Assembly (NCBI GenBank): GCA_014871385.1
Contig: CM026431.1
Coordinates: 2,302,464-2,366,463, forward strand
Direction: 5' to 3'
Length of the DNA: 64,000 bases
From: Ceratodon purpureus
Taxonomy: Eukaryota > Streptophyta > Bryopsida > Pseudoditrichales > Ditrichaceae
Part shown: piece after piece, positions 15,456-61,672 of the stretch
Layout: every line of letters starts with the position of its first letter
Numbering within the stretch: the stretch's first letter is position 1
Translations under genes and position numbers: made by a program
The notes under the pieces: model-generated
The model's input: only the letters and a program-made list of their open reading frames with translations
Database searches by the model: none
Told to the model about the DNA's origin: nothing

Positions 15456-17442
15456 TCATCGAACTGTACGCTGCGGAGTATCAAGTTTTTCTGCGGCTTC
15501 ACGTTTCTGGGCCCGCTTCGCCCGACGGCCGGTGGCTTCCTTCGCAGGTGCCTTCTCCTTATTCTTCCCGGGGCGAAAAGTAGAAGAACCAGCTTCATCA
15601 GCTTGCGCAACTGCAGCTGCAAGGTGCTTAACGGCCACAGGCCGAGCTTCACGACGGCCAGCACGGACGTAGCCGTTGTCACCCCATCGACGGTTGCCGA
15701 TGCGAATATTGGGCTTGAGGTAGTAGTCGTCCAAGTCCTCCTCATCGTAGTAATCCTCAGGTTCCTCCGGCAAGGTAATCGCAGGCATGCCTTTGAACCA
15801 CGATGCCCTCATAAGGAGGCAGACGCTTTCCTCGACAAGGTAATCGTTGAGCCTGTACACACAAAACACGCGGATGATCAAATCCCATCTATGGATACTA
15901 ATAAGAATGTAGGAATCTATCGACTATACAAGATAGGAAACGCATAAAGTCGCAACTGCTCAAATTATTTGAGAGGGAAACTGCAATGATGCAGATATCA
16001 CTATTACTCCACTCCTCTTTCTCTTCCCAAAACGCGCACCGGAAATGCTCTACCAAACAGCACACCAGAAACGATCCAAGAAAAGCCTGCTCTGGTTCGC
16101 TTCCCGTTCGAGTTATGTAGCACCTTGAAAAGCTTAACTCCAAATCTGAACTCCTTCAAATTCCTCAACTCAACCGGACCTAAAGTCCAGTCCCAGTTGT
16201 ACTCACATCCACGCCCAAATTCGAGGAATTCCTACGAAGAGGATAACTTGGACGACTACTACTTCAAGTCCACAACCAAACCCGCTTCGGAACCAAACAA
16301 CTCTCCCTACAATCAAACTCGTCAACTGAACACAAACGATCGTCCTCCGATCCACTCAACAATCCAACAACACACTCTCGAACTGCTAATACTCAAACTT
16401 CAGAAATTGGCGAACGAGACAAGGAGTCCCCTCCAAGGCAAGCCAACGGCTCCGCATCGAACGACAACTGCGAACACACAATGAGTACAAGCCAAGGTCA
16501 CCCATCCACAAATATTGCACAACTAAAATATGGTAAACTTGAACAGAGTATAAGAACACACCTGCCATCCAGTGATCTGTACAGATATAACTCGGTGAAG
16601 GGCAGGCGGCACTGCGGGCACCAGGTGTTCTTCTGGTACAGCGCCCAACGTAGTATACAGGTAATGCTGCAACAATCACACGAACATGTAATCAAGGACC
16701 AAGTAAAACATCCTTGAGTTAAATTCATCACTATGAAGAAGTACAAGACAGCATTTGACATTACGATTATGAAACTTGAATGCCAAACTATGTTAACCCA
16801 TAAATACTTACCAGTATGAATGCTCACAGCCTTTGATCTGGCTTGTTTGTGCTAATTTAATCCTGTCCAAGCAAATAGCACACACGTCCGAATCGTAGAT
16901 ATGTCCAGTTCCGCCTTCCTGGCATCCCAACGAGGAAGAGGAACTTTACATACTTAACAATGAACTCAGCCCTCCAATTCAAAACATGGTCTATTCGAAA
17001 AACTTAATTTAGTGAAGACATTGCATTAGATGACAACAGAGCACAGACCATGAGATGTAGACATAGAACCAATAATTACGAATTGTAAATGCTCAGACAT
17101 CCTCACGTCAAACTGAGGTGTTCAAAGACTCACCAGAGCAGGGACGGACACAGACACAGATGACGCAATGCCGCAGGCTAGGTCCTTTGATTTCTCCTCA
17201 AAACCATGCTCAGGGTGGCCTTCTTCCGGGCATTCAACCTGGCAGGAGCTACCTCCAAGGACAGGATCAAAAGCAGCTGCATCGTTGGCTGCAGAACTTC
17301 CAACACCACTCTTCGCTACTTCCGCTGATACGAAGACCTCAACTGCCGCTGGCATGTGCACCTCAGAGACGCACGCTTCATCAAGGCATCCTTCGCCGCT
17401 GGGCATTGTAGCACTCAAGGCAGCGCTCCCACTCCCATCCAT
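15456..17442 (-). CDS. RING-HC finger protein, putative E3 ubiquitin ligase (4 exons)
   Basis: Exons on the minus strand: 17442-17134, 16918-16812, 16666-16562, 15852-15456. They join in phase to 305 residues. A complete C3HC4 RING is split over exons 2 and 3: Cys116, Cys119, Cys134, His136, Cys139, Cys142, Cys155, Cys158, with WCPQCRLPF at the end. The C-terminal region has LVEESVCLLMRASWF, an acidic EEDLDDYYLKP stretch, IGNRRWGDNGYVRAGR and a basic tail with TGRRAKRAQKREAAEK. This layout matches an uncharacterised plant RING/U-box superfamily group. Transfer of ubiquitin from an E2 to an unknown substrate is inferred from the RING. Exon 1 is rich in Ser, Ala and Glu and looks disordered. 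Intron 3 contains one copy of a ~590-bp repeat whose second copy abuts the start codon. Confidence 0.8.
15891..16478. repeat. ~590-bp direct repeat, copy 1 (inside RING intron 3)
   Basis: This stretch is nearly identical to 17441-18028 in the same orientation, from ATGGATACTAATAAGAATGT to CGAACAC. On the plus strand it carries a decayed copy of RING exon 4: EEDNLDDYYFK (about 16237-16269) resembles EEDLDDYYLK. A second collinear match (16421-16455 against 15563-15528) follows at nearly the same spacing. Relative to the RING gene it is therefore an antisense pseudo-copy of its own last exon. Confidence 0.85.
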
Positions 17443-18028
17443 GGATACTAATAAGAATGTAGGAATCTATCGACTATACAAGATAGGAAACGCATAAAGT
17501 CGCAACTGCTCAAATTATTTGAGAGGGAAACTGCAATGATGCAGATATCACTATTACTCCACTCCTCTTTCTCTTCCCAAAACGCGCACCGGAAATGCTC
17601 TACCAAACAGCACACCAGAAACGATCCAAGAAAAGCCTGCTCTGGTTTGCTTCCCGTTCGAGTTATGTAGCACCTTGAAAAGCTTAACTCCAAATCTGAA
17701 CTCCTTCAAATTCCTCAACTCAACCGGACCTAAAGTCCAGTCCCAGTTGTACTCACATCCACGCCCGAATTCGAGGAATTCCTACGAAGAGGATAACTTG
17801 GACGACTACTACTTCAAGTCCACAACCAAACCCGCTTCGGAACCAAACAACTCTCCCTACAATCAAACTCGTCAACTTAAACACAAACGATCGTCCTCCG
17901 ATCCACTCAACAATCCAACAACACACTCTCGAACTGCTAATACTCAAACTTCAGAAACTGGCGAACGAGACAAGGAGTCCCCTCCAAGGCAAGCCAACGG
18001 CTCCGCACCGAACGACAACCGCGAACAC
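17441..18028. repeat. ~590-bp direct repeat, copy 2 (5' flank of the RING gene)
   Basis: Near-identical partner of 15891-16478, with a few substitutions and a one-base indel near 17877. Its edge coincides with the RING start codon: the minus-strand ATG is 17442-17440. In this copy the repeat therefore serves as the 5' leader and proximal promoter region of the gene. High identity implies a recent duplication or gene conversion. Confidence 0.85.
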
Positions 18029-18526: not shown

Positions 18527-19873
18527 CGGTGAAAGCTCTGATCAGCAGAGATCACTGGCTCTCCCTCAAAATCCAGATTTGGGAATTCGAAAAAATAAAC
18601 AATGACAGATGATCGAACAAGCTAGGGTTTGCACCACATCGAAAGAGACTCTAACAAGCTAGGGTTCGCACCACATGAAACTCCACAACATGCAAAACCC
18701 TGAAACTCACTGCTGAACCACTAGTTATCTCTCTTCGCAGCTGCTATTGACGAAACACACACAAACAGACACTCCTTTCAGATTCCAAACTCTGATGTTT
18801 GCAAATTCAAAGCGAATTCTAGCAGAATCAAACACAGACCACCCAGCGACGCCGCAACTGGAATCCCGCCCTGATTAGATTCAAAACTGGAGGACAACCA
18901 ACCCTAAGCTTGCACGCTAAGTGAGCCTGAGCTTGAGCCTGCAAACCGACTCGGTCCGTTCGGGAGCAACTTCACTGAGTTGCTTGGATATGTTTATGCG
19001 TTGCATTTGCAGTCCACAGCGTCGCTCGTCGAGACTAGTGCAAACGAGCCTCCCTTGTCCACATACCCGGCATTGAGAACACGTCTACCCCTTACCCGAC
19101 GAACTACCCGGATACAAACCGATTCTCATCCCGGGCACGACAGTAAGTCCACCACGAATACTTTCCATTCCCTCTTTTTACATATTCTGATTAACCTCAA
19201 AGTTACATGTGCATGAATGGCACGGGTTTCCTTGCTCCACTGACCCTGAACTTCCACAATTAAGGTTGAGTGCTCTAAAACCACCAATTTAAGGTGATTC
19301 TGAAGTTCCTGGAAGTCGTATGTATGATCTGAAATTTTTGTATGATGGCGAAACAAGATTCAGGAAGATTGCAAAAATTTCAGAATTTAATACCAAAAAT
19401 GCAATTTACTACGACTTTTTAAACTGAAAAGTGTGCAAGACCTGAAAGCAATCAGTAGGGTCTTCTTGAAAACCACCGAGCGTGTATTACTTGTGGACTA
19501 GATGTGAACTTAAAACCGTGCAAAGGAGGAAGGAAAAACTGGGAAGTGTCGAAAAGTAAATTGCCAGGTGTGCGATGTGGCACTACCCACTCTCGTAGCC
19601 AAACCCGGTAAGGCAATGAGGGAAGCCCATGCGCTGGCAGACCTAAAGTCGTCCTGCTACTACTTTTGAACTGGCAGAGTCCCCACAGTGAGCTGTTAAC
19701 GCGCCCACCGACTTCTGCTTGCTGCGCGACCGTGAGCGTGAGGTTTCCCGCGTCGCCTTGGAGGCTTCCCACGCACTGCTTCTTGCCCATGCACATTTCC
19801 CGCGGAGTGCTCTTTGGAGCCGTTGGAAGTGTAGCCTCTCCCCCGCCAAGTTCTTGTTCGCAGCTTCTGGTGA
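18527..19873. other. intergenic DNA with paired telo-box-like motifs
   Basis: The phrase AACAAGCTAGGGTT(T/C)GCACCACAT occurs twice, at about 18617-18640 and 18652-18676. The first copy contains the telo-box core AAACCCTA on the minus strand. Such motifs are typical of plant 5' flanks, so this may be the old promoter or leader of the F-box gene. No coding exon was recognised up to the transposase stop at 19874. Confidence 0.4.
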
Positions 19874-22823
19874 TCATCTTCGATCTTCTTCATTCCTGCT
19901 TTGAGTCCAATTGTATGGGAAAGGATATCTTGGAGTCTCAAAGTGTGTGGGAAATTGTAGAGGGGGTAGCGTAGATTGTGGATGGACGTTAGAATGTGAG
20001 AATTGAGAGACAGTCGAAGAAGAGGGAAGAAAAAATTGACCAGGCATGTGATGGTGACTGAGAGGCGCTAATGGTAGTTGAGGTATGAAGGGTGTGCCGT
20101 TGTGTGCTTCTCCTGTGTTACCAATTCCCATGGTAGTCTGGCGTCCCTCCACGCTCTCCGTCGCCCTCCTTCTGCGAGCATCATGTCTTGAGGCTGCGAG
20201 ACGAGCCTTCTCTGACGCCTTCGCCAACCTCGCACTCTCCACCGCTTGAGCCCGGACTGCCTTCTCACGCTGTGCAAGCTCTTTTTCAGCAGCCTTTCGA
20301 GCCTGCTCTGCTGCTCGTTGTACAGCGCGTTCTTCCTTCTCCCGCTGTGCAGCTTCACGCTGAACTGCCTTCCGAGCCCTCTCCTCTTCCCTCTCTATTG
20401 CCTTTCTTTTTTTTTGATCCTCTCTTGCTTGTTTGGCTTCCTGCTTGTCTTTCTTATCTTTCTCTCTCTTGTCTTTTACTGCTGCGGCTGCCTCTACATA
20501 CTGTCTCGATGTAATGATAATGGACTTCGTAAACTCAATAATCGGATCCTTTCGCTTACCTGAAGTGCGCGTCGTGACGCTTGGTAGTTGCAGGAAACGC
20601 GTAATCGATTGTGGTTCTTCGATATCTGTGTCGAGGACTCCTATTTCTTCTTCAGGCGTCACCTCTGAACCATCATGTCCAACGAAAAAGTGAGAGGTTG
20701 TCGACGTTGGAGCCTCGGCAAAGTCGTCTTCCAGATCTGCGTCAGTCTGCTGCTCTATGCCGAAGTCAGATTCATTCGGACTGACATACTCTTCCTGGAG
20801 TTCTTCATGTACATGGAGATTTTCCAAACTCTCCCCGACTCTTACGCTGCCTATAATGTCATGGCTCTGAATGCCCTCATCCGTGGCAGACCCTGGGACC
20901 TGAGTGGCGCTTCGGAGAGATAAAGCTGAATCAACCACATGACATCAATAGATGAGCAGAGAGCCACAGACAAGCAGCATGCAAACAGTACATGTACAAA
21001 GGATTTTACCATGCGCAGGCTGGGGGAGAATGTCAACATACCTGCGACGGTAGCTGAGATTGAATCAGTCGATGCACGTTCTGTACCCTCCCCTGCAACC
21101 GGCAAGTGCTGCTGCAAGGAGCCATGGCTGCAGCCTGCGTCGGCAGTTTCGGTGTCTCCGGCAGATTGTAATGGTGAAACAGGTTCGTTCCCTTCCCCGG
21201 CTCCCTCAGTGTTTCTAAAAACTTCTGATGTGACAAACAGATGGTCCACTGCATTTTTGTTAAGTGGATAAATCCCTGCCTTTCTGAAACCGCTTTGTAT
21301 GTTTCTTTCTGTCAAGGCTTTTCGTAGAGATAGAGAAACCCATTGGGCTAAGATGTTTTTAGAGGCTGGAGTATCTAGATTTCTAGTCATCCAATAATCT
21401 CTGTAAAGGCAAAAGTGTTGCGTGAATGGTTTGAACACTGATAAGTCCAAGGGTTGCAGGGCATGGGAGGTATGAGATGGTAGCGTCAGTAAGTCTAACC
21501 CTATATCCATGGCTGCCTTAGCTACGTCCAGCGTCACGTGGCTGTTATGTCCATCGAGGATGAGGAGATGGCGATGATTTTCTGAAATGGTGTCAACTCT
21601 CCTAATGGATTCAACAAAGTGTGAAATCCAAGCACTAAACAGGTATGTGGTCATCCACGCACGAGGTTGCATAGCCATTGTAGCGCCGTCCTCGCAATGC
21701 TCTATGTAGTTGTGTCCAAATCGCTTTCCCCGAAAGATGTAGAAAGAAGGGATTGCTTTGCCTGCTGCATTTACACAGACTAACACAGATAACCATTCCC
21801 GTTGGTTTGGGACAATGGTGTGCACACGACGAGCTCCTGTTTTCGCAATGACCATGCCTCCTCCATTTCTCCCTACCATATGCAATGAAAATGTGAGTTT
21901 CAGTGTTTTAAACCATTATGTGTTTGTGGCTTAATTAGTCATTTGTTACAATTGAAACGAATGATTTTGAATAAGGAAAACATACCTGCTTGAGCACCTG
22001 ACTCATCGCAATTCCAAATGCGATGAGTTGGGTACTTGTGCATGCCATATAGTTCTTCTAAATTGCTGTACAGTGATGCCACATTTTCAGGACATAATGA
22101 TTTGGCCCTTGCCGTTTCCAGTGCTTGTGCAGCCCTTATACTCAGCTCTGGATGACGCCTCTTAAACCAACGCATCCAACCGCCCCCTGGTATACCATCT
22201 GTAAATGGAGTGCATCTAGTTTTGGTCATCTCATATACCTTCATTTTTAGAGCGGTTGGTGACAAACCGAAGCCAGCATCACACATTCGTATCAGGTACT
22301 GCACCAATTCGGATTCTTCTTCAGGAGTGAGGACACTCATCTTCCCCCTACGGCGGCTGCGAGTATGACCGTAACACCAGTCCCGAAAAGATGAATAAGG
22401 TATGTTGTTTCGCTGTGCAGCCAACCGCATAGACAAACCATTGTCTACAGCTGCCAACGCTGACCGTAGTTGCTCATCAGTCCAGTTCCCGTTTTTTTTG
22501 CTGCGCCTCTGTTGAGATGCAGGTCGTCTGCCACCCCTTGGACGTACGCAGTCCTCAGGCAGTTGCTGATCTGCGTCATGATTGTCCCCACTTGCAGTAC
22601 AGTCTGCTCTGTTTGGCACTGGTACACGGCGCAGCGACGCTCTACGAGGGGGCGCAGGAAGGTTAGTAAAAGTTTGAATACTATCACGTATCCTCGAGTG
22701 CCTGCCGCGTCGGAATGCATGGGCGTCAGTGGCATCTGCACGCAGGCGGCGGTGAGTTGTGTACCCAGCCGGTGCTGAATTCCTTCCGTCGGAGGGACCA
22801 AATTCCACCCCGGGTGTAAGCAT
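19874..22823 (-). CDS. pogo/Tigger-type transposase, DDE_1 superfamily (3 exons)
   Basis: Exons on the minus strand: 22823 (first ATG)-21986, 21872-21042, 20925-19874. All phases agree, giving about 906 residues. An N-terminal Arg-rich segment leads to a psq-type helix-turn-helix (NGNWTDEQLRSALAAVDNG, about 22440-22490) and a CENP-B-like second DNA-binding region ending FKRRHPELSIRAAQAL. The catalytic acids are Asp in NCDESGA (codon 22007-22005), Asp in ILDGHNSH (21555-21553) and Asp in LQPLDLSVF (21447-21445), a DD-35-D arrangement. The C-terminal exon adds an acidic region and a long Lys/Arg/Glu/Ala helix (about 20490-20150). Cut-and-paste transposition is the family role. The frame is intact, so it is either a young element or a domesticated gene. 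No matching terminal inverted repeats were found on both sides. The true 5' end may lie further upstream. Confidence 0.8.
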
Positions 22824-23550
22824 GGTAAAGTGGACCAAAAAAGTGCTTAACTATTTGTCAGTTTCAGTATTTTTGCAAAAATTGCACAAAAGTGACGGAA
22901 AGATGTAATTGAAGTCAAGTTTTTTTGCTAATATGGATTCTTAACTTGTTTTTCTACAACTTGGAAAAGTTTCGTGCAAAGTAGACACTTTAAAGTTATT
23001 GTATGAAGGCTTTAAATCCAAGCAAAGTGAATGCAGTCATTTGGAAAAGTGAACATAACGGTTTAGGGTTTTGTCCGAAATCACTTTTAATTTCGCAGTG
23101 CCCTCTGTATATTTAAGAGGTATTCTAAAATAGTCAATTCATATACTCATTAATTGGTTTAGCGTTCCAAAAGTACCGCAAGGATGTTATTTAAGAGGGT
23201 CACTTCCGCGGTACTTTTTGTCATTTTTTTTTCACCGAACATTGTTTTTTAAATTGAAAAAAACATCCTCTAAAGACAACACAGGGCACCAGATGAAGAA
23301 ATCAAGACTTTGGAAAAGTTCATTTTCATGATTTAGAACTAGTGGTCAAATTTAGTTTCAATTGAGGATGTTTTTTTTATGAAGATGTGTGTAAGATACC
23401 TTGCGACACCCTAAAAAGTGACTAAAATGCTCAAAAACTACACCAAAATGCTCAAAATCAGGTTTGAGCTTTAAAAAACAGCACACTTCCTATTCACTTG
23501 TTAGTGGTCACATGTTGCACTTTGTGGTCCACTTTATTGTGCTTACACCC
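22812..23550. mobile_element. 739-bp inverted-repeat-bounded element at the transposase 5' end
   Basis: The left end reads GGGTGTAAGCATGGTAAAGT and continues GGACCAAAAAAGTGC (22812-22846). The right end reads, on the other strand, GGGTGTAAGCACAATAAAGT then GGACCACAAAGTGC (23550-23517). The arms are about 35 bases with roughly five differences. The AT-rich interior also holds a smaller hairpin, AAAAGTACCGC at 23169-23179 against GCGGTACTTTT at 23208-23218. It has no coding capacity. It resembles a nonautonomous DNA transposon. No clear target-site duplication is visible because the flanks are C/G runs. Confidence 0.55.
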
Positions 23551-23791
23551 CCCCAGGTTGACGTCCAGCGTGAATATCCGGACAGTCCCGCCGCGCCCGG
23601 ACTACCTTGCTGCGGCGCTCATGCAGCAGATCCAGCGGCGTGTAGTCTACAGCTGCTGGACTGTTCTGGAACTCATCGGAGGAGGAAGAAGATCCATCTT
23701 CTCCAGACCAACCTTCACCGACTTCATCATCAAATTCGTCGATGTCGCTCCAGGCCGCAGGGCCGTCATCTCCGAGCTGGATTGGTGACAT
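23543..23791 (-). other. candidate acidic 5' exon of the transposase gene
   Basis: A minus-strand frame opens with ATG at 23791 and encodes about 80 residues. It starts MSPIQLGDDGPAAW and continues with acidic and serine-rich sequence (IDEFDDEVGEGW, GEDGSSSSSDEF). It ends at the inverted-repeat element, where GGGGTGTAAGC could supply a GT donor. An acceptor such as AATTCAG near 22779 would join it to the transposase body. This is inference: composition suits a regulatory N-terminus, but no family match was recognised. Confidence 0.25.
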
Positions 23792-25772
23792 GGTCGCTCA
23801 AGACCTGCAACGACACTCCGTCCGCCAATCGTTACAGTCAGAGACCGCCTCGGTAGCATCACTGTGTGAGACGCAGCTCTCATGATTCATGAAATGCATG
23901 ACATCGCAGAGTACTGACGAACAACGCATTCATGAATCGAAGCTACGGAGCATCTGAGCATGCAACACATACATCAATTGTGCAGAAAAAGGAACGTGAA
24001 GCGTTTCGAGTTTGGACTCACCAGCTGCCTCTTGGATGTCGATACTCAGTCGAGGCTAAAGTCAATCAACTAGTGTGTACAGAACAAGTCACTACCTTCA
24101 GGAACAAACTCGAAGTTCAATGCACCAGATCACATAGTCTATGAATTATAAGTTTATAACTACATTGCATGTACTGAGGCTGAAAATTCCTCTCTAAATC
24201 TCAATCACTGAAGGTCACCACTCTCTCATACTCAAGCGGCAATGTTGTAGAAGAAGAGACTGAATGTGAAAAGTTTTTTTGTGAATGTAATATAATCAGT
24301 GCACTGCGGTGCAACCGTCAGAATTAGTACGTGATTATGGGAATGGAGCCGTCATGTAATGGACCACGCCTTCTCACAGCAGCCGTCATATTTCATTTCT
24401 AAATCTGACAATACTAACTACCTAAAACCACCCACTTACTTACATGTACCTAATCACGGCATTGACTATGAATAACCCAAGTGCACGTCTTCAACACGCC
24501 TCTTCATGATCTCTAAATATAATCTTGTTACTTTATATTCTCGTATTAAGGCGCTCCCCATTTCCAGATCTCAACACTGGTGGACGCGGAAAAAATGTCA
24601 AGGTCATGAGCGGCTGCATGACTGGCCTATAGGTTGGTTTTGGGGGGCTGATCGGTTTTAGAGCAATCTACCTTAGTACCTCGTAACCCGCGATAGAGGC
24701 AACCTCTCGGGCCCGCCTCTTTCCAAACTCACCAATCACAGCACCGGCACCACTCCAGCACATGACCAGAAAAAAAGTTGGTCATGTATCCTCGTCAGAT
24801 GCCACAACTAGTGTTTTTTTTACTGTTTTTGAAAAAGTGCCAGGGTGGCGACATAATTTTTTTTAGAGACTGGAGATTTATCGACGCAAATTCTATCCAG
24901 GCAAAAAAAATCATTTATTTCTATAGAAACCACTGTAATTATAAAGAAAACCATGGAAAAGTTGGCGACAGTGAGTCACTGCGCAAGAAAAAGTTGGCAC
25001 CAAGTCTGACATGAAAACATACTATTTTCGCCTAAATCAGTAATGACTCAAATATTTTTCACCTTTAGGCGATTTTTCGCTTGTAAAAAAATCACTGGCC
25101 ACAACGTTTCCACTAGTGTATACTATATTAAAAATTGTTTTATATTTATATTTAAAAGACTTTGTTATTGTGTTTCTTATAAAGTTATTTAAATATCTTT
25201 GTACTAAGGGCCTTAAAAGGTAAAAATAAAAATAAAAATAATTAATTTTTGAAATTGGAGGAACCCAATTGCCCTCCTGTTGCTTCAAAGTGGACCATCC
25301 ATCCATGTTTGATAATTGATTGTTGTGGCAGTGTTTGTCATAAGCTGAATCCTTAATCTTATAAATATGACTACAAATCCTAGTCATTCAATTATATTGA
25401 CTCTCAAGATACATGTAAGTAAGTTTTACATAAATTTTTAATGTGATTATATAAAAGTAATATTTATTTATTTATTTAATGAAATACAATGTTTTTTCAA
25501 ATTTTATAATAATATGTAATCGTCATTGTATACCAATTGTGTTTCAACATGTCAAGAATTCATCAAAAGCATTGTCTATGTTTAAATTGTTATAATTGAG
25601 ATAAATTCATTCTTTATTTATTAATGCAGCCACTATTGGGTTGCCTTGTAGTCTATGAATAATCAATTTATACTAATGAAATAAAGATAAATGAGTATAT
25701 ATAATTCTTCAACTGTATACGCTTTTATTTCATCTTTTACAAAAATCAGTAAATACTTTAATAATTTTTCCC
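23792..25772. other. intergenic DNA, AT-rich from about 24.8 kb
   Basis: No gene recognised. A more GC-balanced patch at 24580-24760 carries no identifiable tRNA or protein motif. The last 50 bases include the putative poly(A) signal of the minus-strand gene that stops at 25773, AATAAA on the minus strand near 25725-25732. Confidence 0.5.
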
Positions 25773-54159: not shown

Positions 54160-54300
54160 TTTGGAAGTAGTGGTTTTTTTCTTCTTTTTATTATTTTATT
54201 ATTTTATTTTTATGAGTCAAATGGTGAAAATTTCATTGCAAGAAGAGAACAATACACTGCCGCAGAACCAAGTAAGGGGAACCTGGTTGGCAAAAAAATT
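54160..54300 (-). mobile_element. LINE-type 3' tail, minus orientation
   Basis: On the minus strand: GTGTATTGTTCTC, TTGCAATGAAATTTT, CACCATTTGACTC, then an A-rich tail with AATAAAATAATAAAA. The CACCATTTGACTC-plus-poly(A) end recurs at 54948-54996 and 60940-60990. Target-site duplication not clear. Confidence 0.5.
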
Positions 54301-54930: not shown

Positions 54931-55013
54931 AAAAAAATCAGAAGCTTTTTCTTCATTTCAATGGAAGTTCACCATTTGACTCAAAAAAAAAATTTTAAAA
55001 AAATCAGAAGCTT
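54931..55013 (+). mobile_element. 49-bp LINE tail with target-site duplication
   Basis: AAAAAAATCAGAAGCTT at 54931-54947 is repeated exactly at 54997-55013. Between them lie 49 bases ending CACCATTTGACTC and an A-rich tail with an internal TTTT. This is the signature of a severely 5'-truncated, reverse-transcribed insertion. Some of the A residues could belong to the tail; the unambiguous duplication is ATCAGAAGCTT. Confidence 0.75.
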
Positions 55014-58683: not shown

Positions 58684-59595
58684 AATGAATTGTGGATTCA
58701 CCGAAGATGACCTTTGCCCAATGCCTATTTGGTCATGCTGTAAGATTCAGACGCAGAGGATTTTTGAAGTTATGGTCTTGGGTGGGAGGGGTGGGGTTAC
58801 GGACAATTTGGAGAAGATGTAAGAGCCAAGTGTTTGAGGGTGCAAAATGGAGGTCTACTCAAGTCCGGCAATTCATTTGGAAATCAATGTTGGATTATGG
58901 AAGGATTGACTAGAGACGCACCCTGAAAGCAATTAATAGAGTACAATCACAAGCACAAATTCAGAGTACACTTATAGCATTTGACTCGAAATGGCAAAAT
59001 AGACATATATTTGGTCACAAAACAGGTCTTTCAGTCAGATGGAAACTAATATCTCCAGGTGGTATATTTCCTAACTGGTTGTGATGTTTCTTCTCATTAC
59101 ATGTTCAGAAGTCAGAAGTTTGTCATCGCCCTGGAAACTAATCACTCCAGGTGGTATAATTCCTAACTGGTTGTGATGTTTCCTCTCATTACATGTTCAG
59201 AAGTCAGAAGTTTGTCGTCGCCCTGGAAACTAATCCCTCCAGGTGGTATAATTCCTAACTGGTTGTGATGTTTCTTCTCATTACATGTTCAGAAGTCAGA
59301 AGTTTGTCGTCGCCCTGGAAACTAATCCCTTCAGGTGGTATAATTCCTAACTGGTTGTGATGTTTCCTCTCATTACATGTTCAGAAGTCAGAAGTTTGTC
59401 GTCGCCCTGGAAACTAATCACTCCAGGTGGTATAATTCCTAACTAGTTGTGATGTTTCCTCTCATTACATCGTTGAGAAGTCAGAAGTTTGTCGTCGCCC
59501 TGGACATTTGTCCGATGAGGGTTGTACTTTAAATTCTTTGCAATGAAATTTGTTCATTTGCTCCCAAAAAAATTTTAAAAAATGAATTGTGGATT
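58684..59595 (+). mobile_element. 5'-truncated LINE-like retrotransposon with 15-bp target-site duplication
   Basis: AATGAATTGTGGATT occurs exactly at 58684-58698 and 59581-59595, flanking an 882-bp insert. The insert ends CATTTGCTCCC followed by an A-rich tail (AAAAAAATTTTAAAA), as expected for target-primed reverse transcription. Its 5' part has an open frame (about 58692-58913) with RQFIWKSMLDYGRID and, after a stop, further coding-like text. This may be the end of the element's protein, but the domain is not recognised. The 3' part is a five-copy 92-bp tandem array. Confidence 0.75.
59041..59500 (+). repeat. tandem array, 5 x 92 bp
   Basis: Copies start at 59041, 59133, 59225, 59317 and 59409, each beginning GGAAACTAAT and containing GGTGGTATAATTCCTAACTG, TCTCATTACATGTTCAGAAG and TTTGTCGTCGCCCT. 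Copies differ by a few substitutions; the last has a small insertion near 59470. The period is not a multiple of three, so it is not a coding repeat. Confidence 0.95.
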
Positions 59596-61672
59596 AGTTA
59601 CTACAATAAATTTTTGTTGTTGGTCGAAGTTATAACTAACACACAAATAACAATAGCTTATAATGAATATGTGATACAGACGCAGACAATACTGAATCTG
59701 TCAATTATGATTTTCTTTCAGTAGGTTGCTAGGAGGTTGGATGAAATATAATCAATTAAAGAGTGCCCAATTTTTTCAGAAACTCTTGAACCTATTTGAC
59801 CAAAAAAGTAAATTTACACTGAAGCAGTGTCTAAAATCACAAAAGATAAAAAACAAAAAATAAAATTAATACACACATTGTAAAATCTTTTTCCTTACCA
59901 TTTTCATTATTTAAAAAATAATATTTAACAAAAAATAAATAAATGTAGAGTGTCACGACTCACGACCCAATGTCACGACCCCTATGTCACAAAATCCGTC
60001 ATGTTTTCATCCAATCCTTCCATCCATCAATCATCATCCAATATATCATTTTCATCCATTTTCATTCATTTGCATGTTTTGTTGACTATTTTCATCTATA
60101 CACAATTTTTTCAATTTCTTTCAATCAACATTCTTTGCAGCAGGGTCCATGTTTCTTGATCATGTGTTTTTTTTAGTTTTGTGTTGCATTGCAGCACAGG
60201 TTTTTGCTAGTACTTAAAATGCCCAATTTTATCATATTATCTTCCAATTGCCTAACTATTACATTTGATGTAAATAATTATTGGCCGTCGGTGCTGTTGG
60301 GAAGCTAGTGTATGTAGATATGCATTGTGTTTGGGTGCATTAATAAATCAAAGCCAATGCACCTGTTCATTATTCAAGTTGTCATTGTTTCAATCTCTCC
60401 ACGTCTAGACAGCAACCCGAAACTGGTTGACAGTGTTCAATAATCAAGTTCAGTTTTGAGAGAAAATATCTCTGTCATTCATTCTCAATTCTTTGCACAG
60501 TAGCTTAGCTGCATGTGATAAAAATCTTATGTGAAAGGGAGCGAACTCAAGTTTTTTGTACCGGCCTGAAGGAAGGGCTGTTTCATAGAAGGAATGAGAC
60601 CATCCAGTTGGAGTGTCATGCGAAGTCATGCCATGTTTGTTTCCGAAATCTAAGAAGTTAGAACAGATTATTGACAGCTGAAGGTCATTTGCATCAATCA
60701 ATTTACTTGTGGAACAAAGTTCAATTTCATTTTCTTATCCAACCAAATGAAAATCTGAAGTATACATTTAACCCCAAAAACCCGGCCTGCAAGTGGGCTT
60801 TTTGAGAATTTGGGTTGGTGCTTGTGATGTCAATTTTGAGCAACTTTTTGTATTTCTTTTTGAAGATTGGAAATTGCATGTGCTTCATGGAAACATAATT
60901 TTATTTATATATTTATTTTATTTTTAAAATTTAAATTTTTTGAGTCAAATGGTGATAATTCCATCGCAAATAATAAAATACACCCCATCACAAAACAGAG
61001 CCCGTAATCCTTTTTCACACATGAGATTTGGAGAAAAAATCATGCTCTTTTAAGTAGCTTTTCCTTTGAGGTCAAACAACTTATTGCAAAAGTTTTATCT
61101 CAAGAGGAGCCTAAGTTTTCTCACTATGCCGGGTAGGAGGCCAAAACATCTTTCTACTTTCGTACTATTAAGAGATAGCAATTAGGGGTTTGTTTTTTCT
61201 TTTCTATTGATTTTTTTCTTCATGAAAGGACAATAATCTTTGTATTGATCATTTGGATTAAAATTTTATAAAAAATTGAATTCACATAAATAAAATAAAA
61301 TGTATAAAATATATTTTCAGACCTCCTTCCTTCATAAGTTTTTTTTTGAAAATTTTACACACTTCTATTACATCTAATGTTTGGCACACATGGACCTTGT
61401 GATATGGACTGTATTGTTTGAAGATTGTTAGCTTTGCACGATGCTAGAATGTCACTTTAAAAGGGAACAAAGTGTGTTGATCTTGTAATGCAAGATTCCA
61501 AGTGAACATTTTTCTTCATGCATTACTCTGATATCTCATATCAAGATACTAGAATCTAAAATGAAAAATTGATCTTTTGTTTCCATTTTGTGCTAGACTA
61601 GATATGGTACATTGGAAGTGTTTTTGGAAGAACATAGTCATGGTTCTTGGGGCTTAAGTAGAATTCACTACA
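59596..61672. other. AT-rich intergenic DNA with one LINE tail
   Basis: The only recognised element is a minus-strand LINE tail at about 60930-61000: minus strand TATTTTATTATTTGC, GATGGAATTATCACC, CATTTGACTC, then poly(A). Short frames near 59950 and 60450-60701 lack motifs. Confidence 0.5.

Follow-up and report, generated by a model that had tools for sequence, protein, structure and literature searches.

How do a coding segment and an antisense copy of it within the same gene come to change together, and is mutation or selection responsible? A RING gene of Ceratodon purpureus raises this question, its last exon having relatives on the opposite strand both in the preceding intron and upstream of the start codon. 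We followed the locus in a stretch of 64,000 nucleotides, here called the window, and in its paralogs.

The RING gene, its repeats and the inverted core

The minus-strand RING gene named in the preliminary description is borne out by an open frame, by its splice sites and by a zf-RING_2 match in the gene product (Pfam, 1.4e-8). Its exons, with borders counted by hand, lie at 17134-17442, 16812-16918, 16562-16666, and 15456-15852. The two near-identical direct repeats claimed for this region were likewise recovered, with 588 of 596 alignment columns identical (98.7%) and 8 differences, one of them a gap. The features are as follows.

15456-17442, minus strand: RING gene of four exons from start codon to stop, with a spliced frame of 918 nt, GT-AG borders, Pfam zf-RING_2, and three paralogous loci
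15853-16561, minus strand: intron 3, 709 nt, containing repeat A
15883-16478: repeat A, in intron 3
17433-18028: repeat B, upstream region and leader through the start codon and the next 7 bases
15711-15749, minus strand: 39-nt core in exon 4, coding for YDEEDLDDYYLKP, variable among paralogs
16234-16272, plus strand: inverted core copy in repeat A of intron 3, separated from the exon arm by 484 nt
17784-17822, plus strand: inverted core copy in the upstream/leader region (repeat B)
15528-15563, minus strand: possible second inverted island in exon 4, weak, against 16421-16455

The relative of exon 4 proposed for the opposite strand of both repeats is clearly present. Positions 15710-15758 of exon 4 match the inverted stretches 16223-16272 and 17773-17822 at 43 of 50 positions, with blastn E-values of 4e-9 when a 3.3-kb query was run on the window and 9e-8 when the window was compared with itself, and the local score of 63 compares with at most 29 in 1000 dinucleotide shuffles. 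The claim of a collinear copy of exon 4 holds for this core of about 50 bp, whereas collinearity of the flanks is not firm, the 3' island being weak and the 5' side giving nothing. Similarity 5' of the core does not exceed chance (126, 498, and 744 of 1000 shuffles equally good), and the flanks show no similarity at the protein level (179 and 434 of 1000 shuffles). The 3' island, 15528-15563 against 16421-16455, is equalled by 3, 17, or 123 of 1000 shuffles, depending on the scoring scheme, when paralog consensus sequences are used. For the window alone, 23, 14, 29, and 4 of 500 shuffles are equally good in local alignments and 81, 166, 146, and 6 of 500 in global alignments. An old copy of the whole of exon 4 was rejected, just this one weak island lying outside the core. 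The ends of the 39-base core used below were set by similarity, but were picked after the alignment was viewed. A copy had also been placed at the start codon; repeat B does reach the start codon, but its inverted core lies 342-380 bp upstream.

Repeats A and B were also considered as LTRs and rejected, as terminal TG/CA and a target duplication are absent by eye and gene exons lie between them. The plus strand of the repeats carries open frames of 162 and 163 codons that are unusual for the composition (reached by 8 and 9 of 1000 shuffles). A plus-strand coding gene was rejected, there being no Pfam match up to E 0.1 and stops in the intron cores of two of the paralogs introduced below, P1 and P2.

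Elsewhere, the window includes a Pogo/Tc5-like DNA transposon (19261-24675) with HTH_psq, HTH_Tnp_Tc5, and DDE_1 matches within 20851-22850 on the minus strand; its inverted ends of 22 bp, at 19261-19282 and 24654-24675, agree at 20 of 22 positions. There is a tandem array at 59040-59504 with a 92-bp unit in five copies (96% matches), and inverted similarities link 54947-55001 with 60921-60978 (83%) and 54184-54249 with 54947-55010 (79%). A match to the WRC domain, which is plant-specific, was also seen.

Four loci and their history

The search covered one assembly of 362 Mb in 151 contigs, and match counts are lower bounds. The repeat has at least 13 matches, all reported ones falling in four loci, and the protein, for which 129 of 147 candidates were scored, has at least 14, again in these loci.

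Window: contig C11
P1: C10:7891k
P2: C10:7931k, on the opposite strand to P1 and about 38 kb away
P3: C10:3376k

Exon 4 of P1-P3 is 95-96% identical to that of the window. P1 and P3 encode full-length proteins, and dN/dS among the window, P1, and P3 is 0.3 to 0.5 (0.034/0.066, 0.034/0.103, and 0.036/0.122). In P2, exons 2 and 3 are missing and with them the RING, and exon 1 joins exon 4 out of frame.

The inverted core is found in intron 3 of all four loci and upstream in three of them. A version of repeat B lies upstream at every locus, with that of P3 lacking the core and other parts. In the P3 leader, 82 nt stand in place of the inverted core, a stretch matched nowhere else when the genome was searched, and about 330 nt are without counterpart in the other loci. 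The distal part of the repeat (bases 1-336; 66-336 in P2) is present, with the core, in intron 3 of all four loci, and the arrangement is therefore older than the four loci. A clean insertion of 596 bp into a 108-nt intron was rejected on the same observation.

The rest of intron 3 in P1-P3 is a different sequence of about 200 nt, which in the window is replaced by leader bases 337-596, including the first ten coding bases; the start codon ATG within the repeat A copy now reads ATA. The corresponding positions 15883-16141 have no counterpart in intron 3 of P1-P3 and match the leader. In the tree, the A and B copies of the window group together (0.991), as do the A copies of P1 and P2 (0.955), while the P3 B copy is badly aligned and sits on a long branch. 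Judged from the sequences, repeat A of the window is best read as recently overwritten by B, which would account for the near-identity of the two; this event would have had one end inside the shared sequence and the other beyond it. Its direction rests on positions 15883-16141 and the tree because fixed differences are uninformative, consisting of one base (C/G, at a gap column of the window) and gap columns only when A of P1-P3 is compared with B of P1-P2.

An outgroup copy on C7 was considered and dropped. The 107-bp match there (L030 4887-4993) corresponds to just a piece of the intron-3 tail of P1-P3, at 86% identity, and tblastn with the protein found no convincing RING gene in the surrounding 9.9 kb.

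Joint changes in exon 4 and intron 3

The exon-4 and intron-3 cores of one locus have derived bases in common. The data are four related loci of one genome, P1 and P2 being close relatives; the majority state was taken as ancestral, without an outgroup, and changes were put on branches by hand. Within the 39-nt core, six derived changes on five branches are common to both arms of one locus: two on the P1/P2 branch (15 to C and 18 to A) and one each in P1 (17 to G), P2 (8 to A), P3 (23 to T), and the window (17 to G). Unshared changes of the exon are at 5, 11, 30, and 36 (window), 5 and 14 (P1), 15 (P2), and 11 (P3), and those of the intron at 12 (window), 31 and 32 (P1/P2), and 11 (P3). The P1 exon departs from the majority state at 14, 15, 17, and 18, four of five adjacent bases, which resembles a cluster from a single event, but two of these are assigned to the older P1/P2 branch. 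Three site models give mean numbers of shared changes of 0.26, 0.59, and 0.85, and six were reached in 0 of 100000, 0 of 50000, and 0 of 50000 draws, respectively, the last model permitting change only where sites were seen to change. The copy had been called decayed, which suits the flanks and not the core, since the latter has partly changed jointly with exon 4.

Identity between the exon and intron cores of the same locus is 34 of 39 in the window, 35 in P1, 36 in P2, and 38 in P3. For each of the four exons, the best match is the intron of its own locus; among the intron columns there is one exception, window A matching the P3 exon at 35 of 39. Of the 24 possible assignments, pairing each exon with the intron of its own locus gives the best sum both for identity (143, next 139) and for duplex energy (-242.6, next -231.4 kcal/mol), where 1/24 is the lowest p possible with four loci. 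The leader core matches its own exon at 34 of 39 positions in the window (whose A and B cores do not differ), 32 in P1, and 36 in P2. It is without the changes common to exon and intron in P1 and P2, but is weak as a control, P1 having just two leader-specific changes and P2 none.

The same four rows were then recounted with the arms treated as a stem. Across the loci, the imperfect inverted arms form 34-38 Watson-Crick pairs of 39 in cis, and pairing is complete at exon positions 15-29, the middle of the core, in every locus but P2, where one pair is missing. Five of the 39 pairs are changed on both sides (reached by 42 of 500 shuffles), as are 7 of 156 cells (1 of 500). For paired columns, covariation scores 0.150 (1 of 500 shuffles), compared with 0.000-0.079 in slid controls, and the number of further pair types is reached by 424 of 500 shuffles. 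Departures from pairing comprise 12 unpaired cells versus 1 G-U among the 156. One doubly changed pair is a swap between G-C and C-G separating the window and P1 from P2 and P3, for which there is no route via a G-U step. Folding supports the double-stranded stem that had been predicted for intron 3 with exon 4, both in the window (z -5.65, 0 of 20 shuffles) and in P3 (z -9.16, 0 of 100), as do the paired changes over four loci.

The exon core is variable at 10 of 39 positions versus 19 of 360 elsewhere in exon 4 (p 1.3e-4). Among the window, P1, and P3, it also exceeds noncoding DNA of the leader, introns 1-2, and the 3'UTR (9/39 versus 62/902, one-sided p 0.0016). The intron core is fast as well (8/39 versus 19/257, p 0.015), and the leader core, which lies at a greater distance, is not (4/39 versus 20/295, p 0.50). 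Between P1 and P2 alone, the exon core differs at 5 of 39 positions versus 0 of 108 and 3 of 252 on its two sides, and their intron core alone is not fast (2/39 versus 9/257).

Template switching, a selected stem, or chance

The explanation we favor, at roughly even odds (about 0.5), is that template switching between the inverted arms made them alike and thereby mutated the coding segment. The order of events would begin, before the four loci, with some 50 bp of exon 4 being copied in inverted orientation into a sequence located both upstream and in intron 3. During replication or repair, a nascent strand would fold back, the arms would anneal, and synthesis would proceed for some bases on the wrong arm, leaving the arms alike again, as in quasi-palindrome correction. 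Such events would write into the coding arm, so that the acidic protein segment evolves faster than the rest.

Copying is favored because both arms are fast and the coding arm is faster than noncoding DNA, because of the swap between G-C and C-G, and because departures from pairing are mostly mismatches. It is also favored by the behavior of the long direct copies: A and B, although homogenised in the window, are not so in P1 and P2, where they share 336 bp in direct order and P1_A groups with P2_A, and plain homology-driven conversion therefore does not predict the pattern. Against copying, the spacer of 409-484 nt is long, PMC8604942 having considered spacers of at most 70 bp; the arms are not fully alike, given the 12 unpaired cells; and the P2 leader equals the P2 intron in exon identity (36/39 each). 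The weakness of the leader as a control, the P1/P2 intron core that is not fast, the shuffle results for doubly changed pairs and for further pair types, and the use of majority states as ancestral also count against it.

More tentatively, the intron copy may be a standing inverted template, drifting as noncoding DNA while short tracts of it are recopied into exon 4 and diversify the coding segment; we would put this below the general case of switching. Core position 17 has the same base in the window exon, A, and B. That the C-to-G change of the window is also present in leader B, the putative source of A, fits a flow from B to A to the exon and hints at it. The P1/P2 intron copies carry two stop-forming bases that the exon does not have, and selection could have kept this stop codon out.

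The main rival, doubtful and clearly behind template switching, is a functional pre-mRNA stem that acts in intron-3 splicing or yields small RNAs against its own message, with selection keeping the arms paired by compensatory changes. The strong predicted stem and the five positions with paired changes agree with this, as does the best pairing in the middle of the core. In the window, 21 nt of the antisense arm would also pair with exon 4 at all but one base. Yet the unshared changes mostly break pairs, with hardly any passing to G-U, and P2, despite its lost exons and broken frame, retains 36 of 39 pairs and has a joint change of its own, which may postdate these losses. Pairing alone also leaves the faster change of the coding arm than of noncoding DNA unexplained, and a known RNA family was rejected in the absence of any Rfam match within 14-20 kb up to E 0.5. 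Template switching in DNA, without any function of the stem, is the more likely source of the co-changes.

Unlikely, in our view, is shared ancestry with ordinary conversion among paralogs, in which a loose acidic linker changes at hot sites and the agreement of exon and intron is a by-product or chance. Acidic linkers often vary, the sites are few and the four loci related, and position 17 changed from C to G in the window and also in P1. However, even the null restricted to sites seen to change did not produce six shared changes, the number of cells changed on both sides is rarely matched by shuffles, and the leader core is not fast. A young or proto-MIRNA born by inverted duplication of its own target is improbable: an inverted gene piece lies inside the gene, near-perfect in P3 (38/39 pairs), but the arm sits within the target gene itself, the same Rfam search gave nothing, and a MIRNA foldback is compact, with a limit of about 300 nt, which the spacer alone exceeds.

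If template switching is the true account, an intron can contain a template in reverse order by which the mutation rate of one coding segment is raised and shaped over about half a kilobase. Joint changes of the arms would then imitate the covariation usually taken as proof of a functional RNA stem, which would make the locus a test case for mutation versus selection; the question is testable because a single genome carries four loci, of which one seems to be broken.

A search of open-access papers found no fitting precedent for intron-exon inverted copies, and we compared the locus with four related systems. MIRNA genes can be born by inverted duplication of target genes. The present case resembles these in that part of a gene exists as an inverted copy and can pair with the message, and it differs in that the copy lies in the intron and upstream region of the gene itself, the loop is long, and any small RNA is putative.

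Template switching between inverted-repeat arms has been described in the coding DNA of yeast genes, where the arms are perfect, 7-16 bp long, and at most 70 bp apart, the limit of that search (PMC8604942). As there, arms become alike, the coding changes are partly nonsynonymous, and events recur in related lineages; here, however, the arms are imperfect and of 40-50 bp, one intronic and one exonic, lie 409-484 nt apart and thus beyond that short-spacer range, and are known from four loci. Template switching is also described as creating and maintaining RNA stems, mainly in rRNA genes and with small loops (PMC8794818). Several compensatory stem changes and an origin by reverse-complement copy are common to both cases, whereas the present gene codes for a protein and is without known RNA function. 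Finally, widely spaced inverted repeats fold back in single-stranded DNA (PMC10164571), which suggests that neither distance nor divergence need block annealing in such DNA; that system differs in that the arms are Alu repeats in a yeast mutant and the outcome is gross rearrangement.
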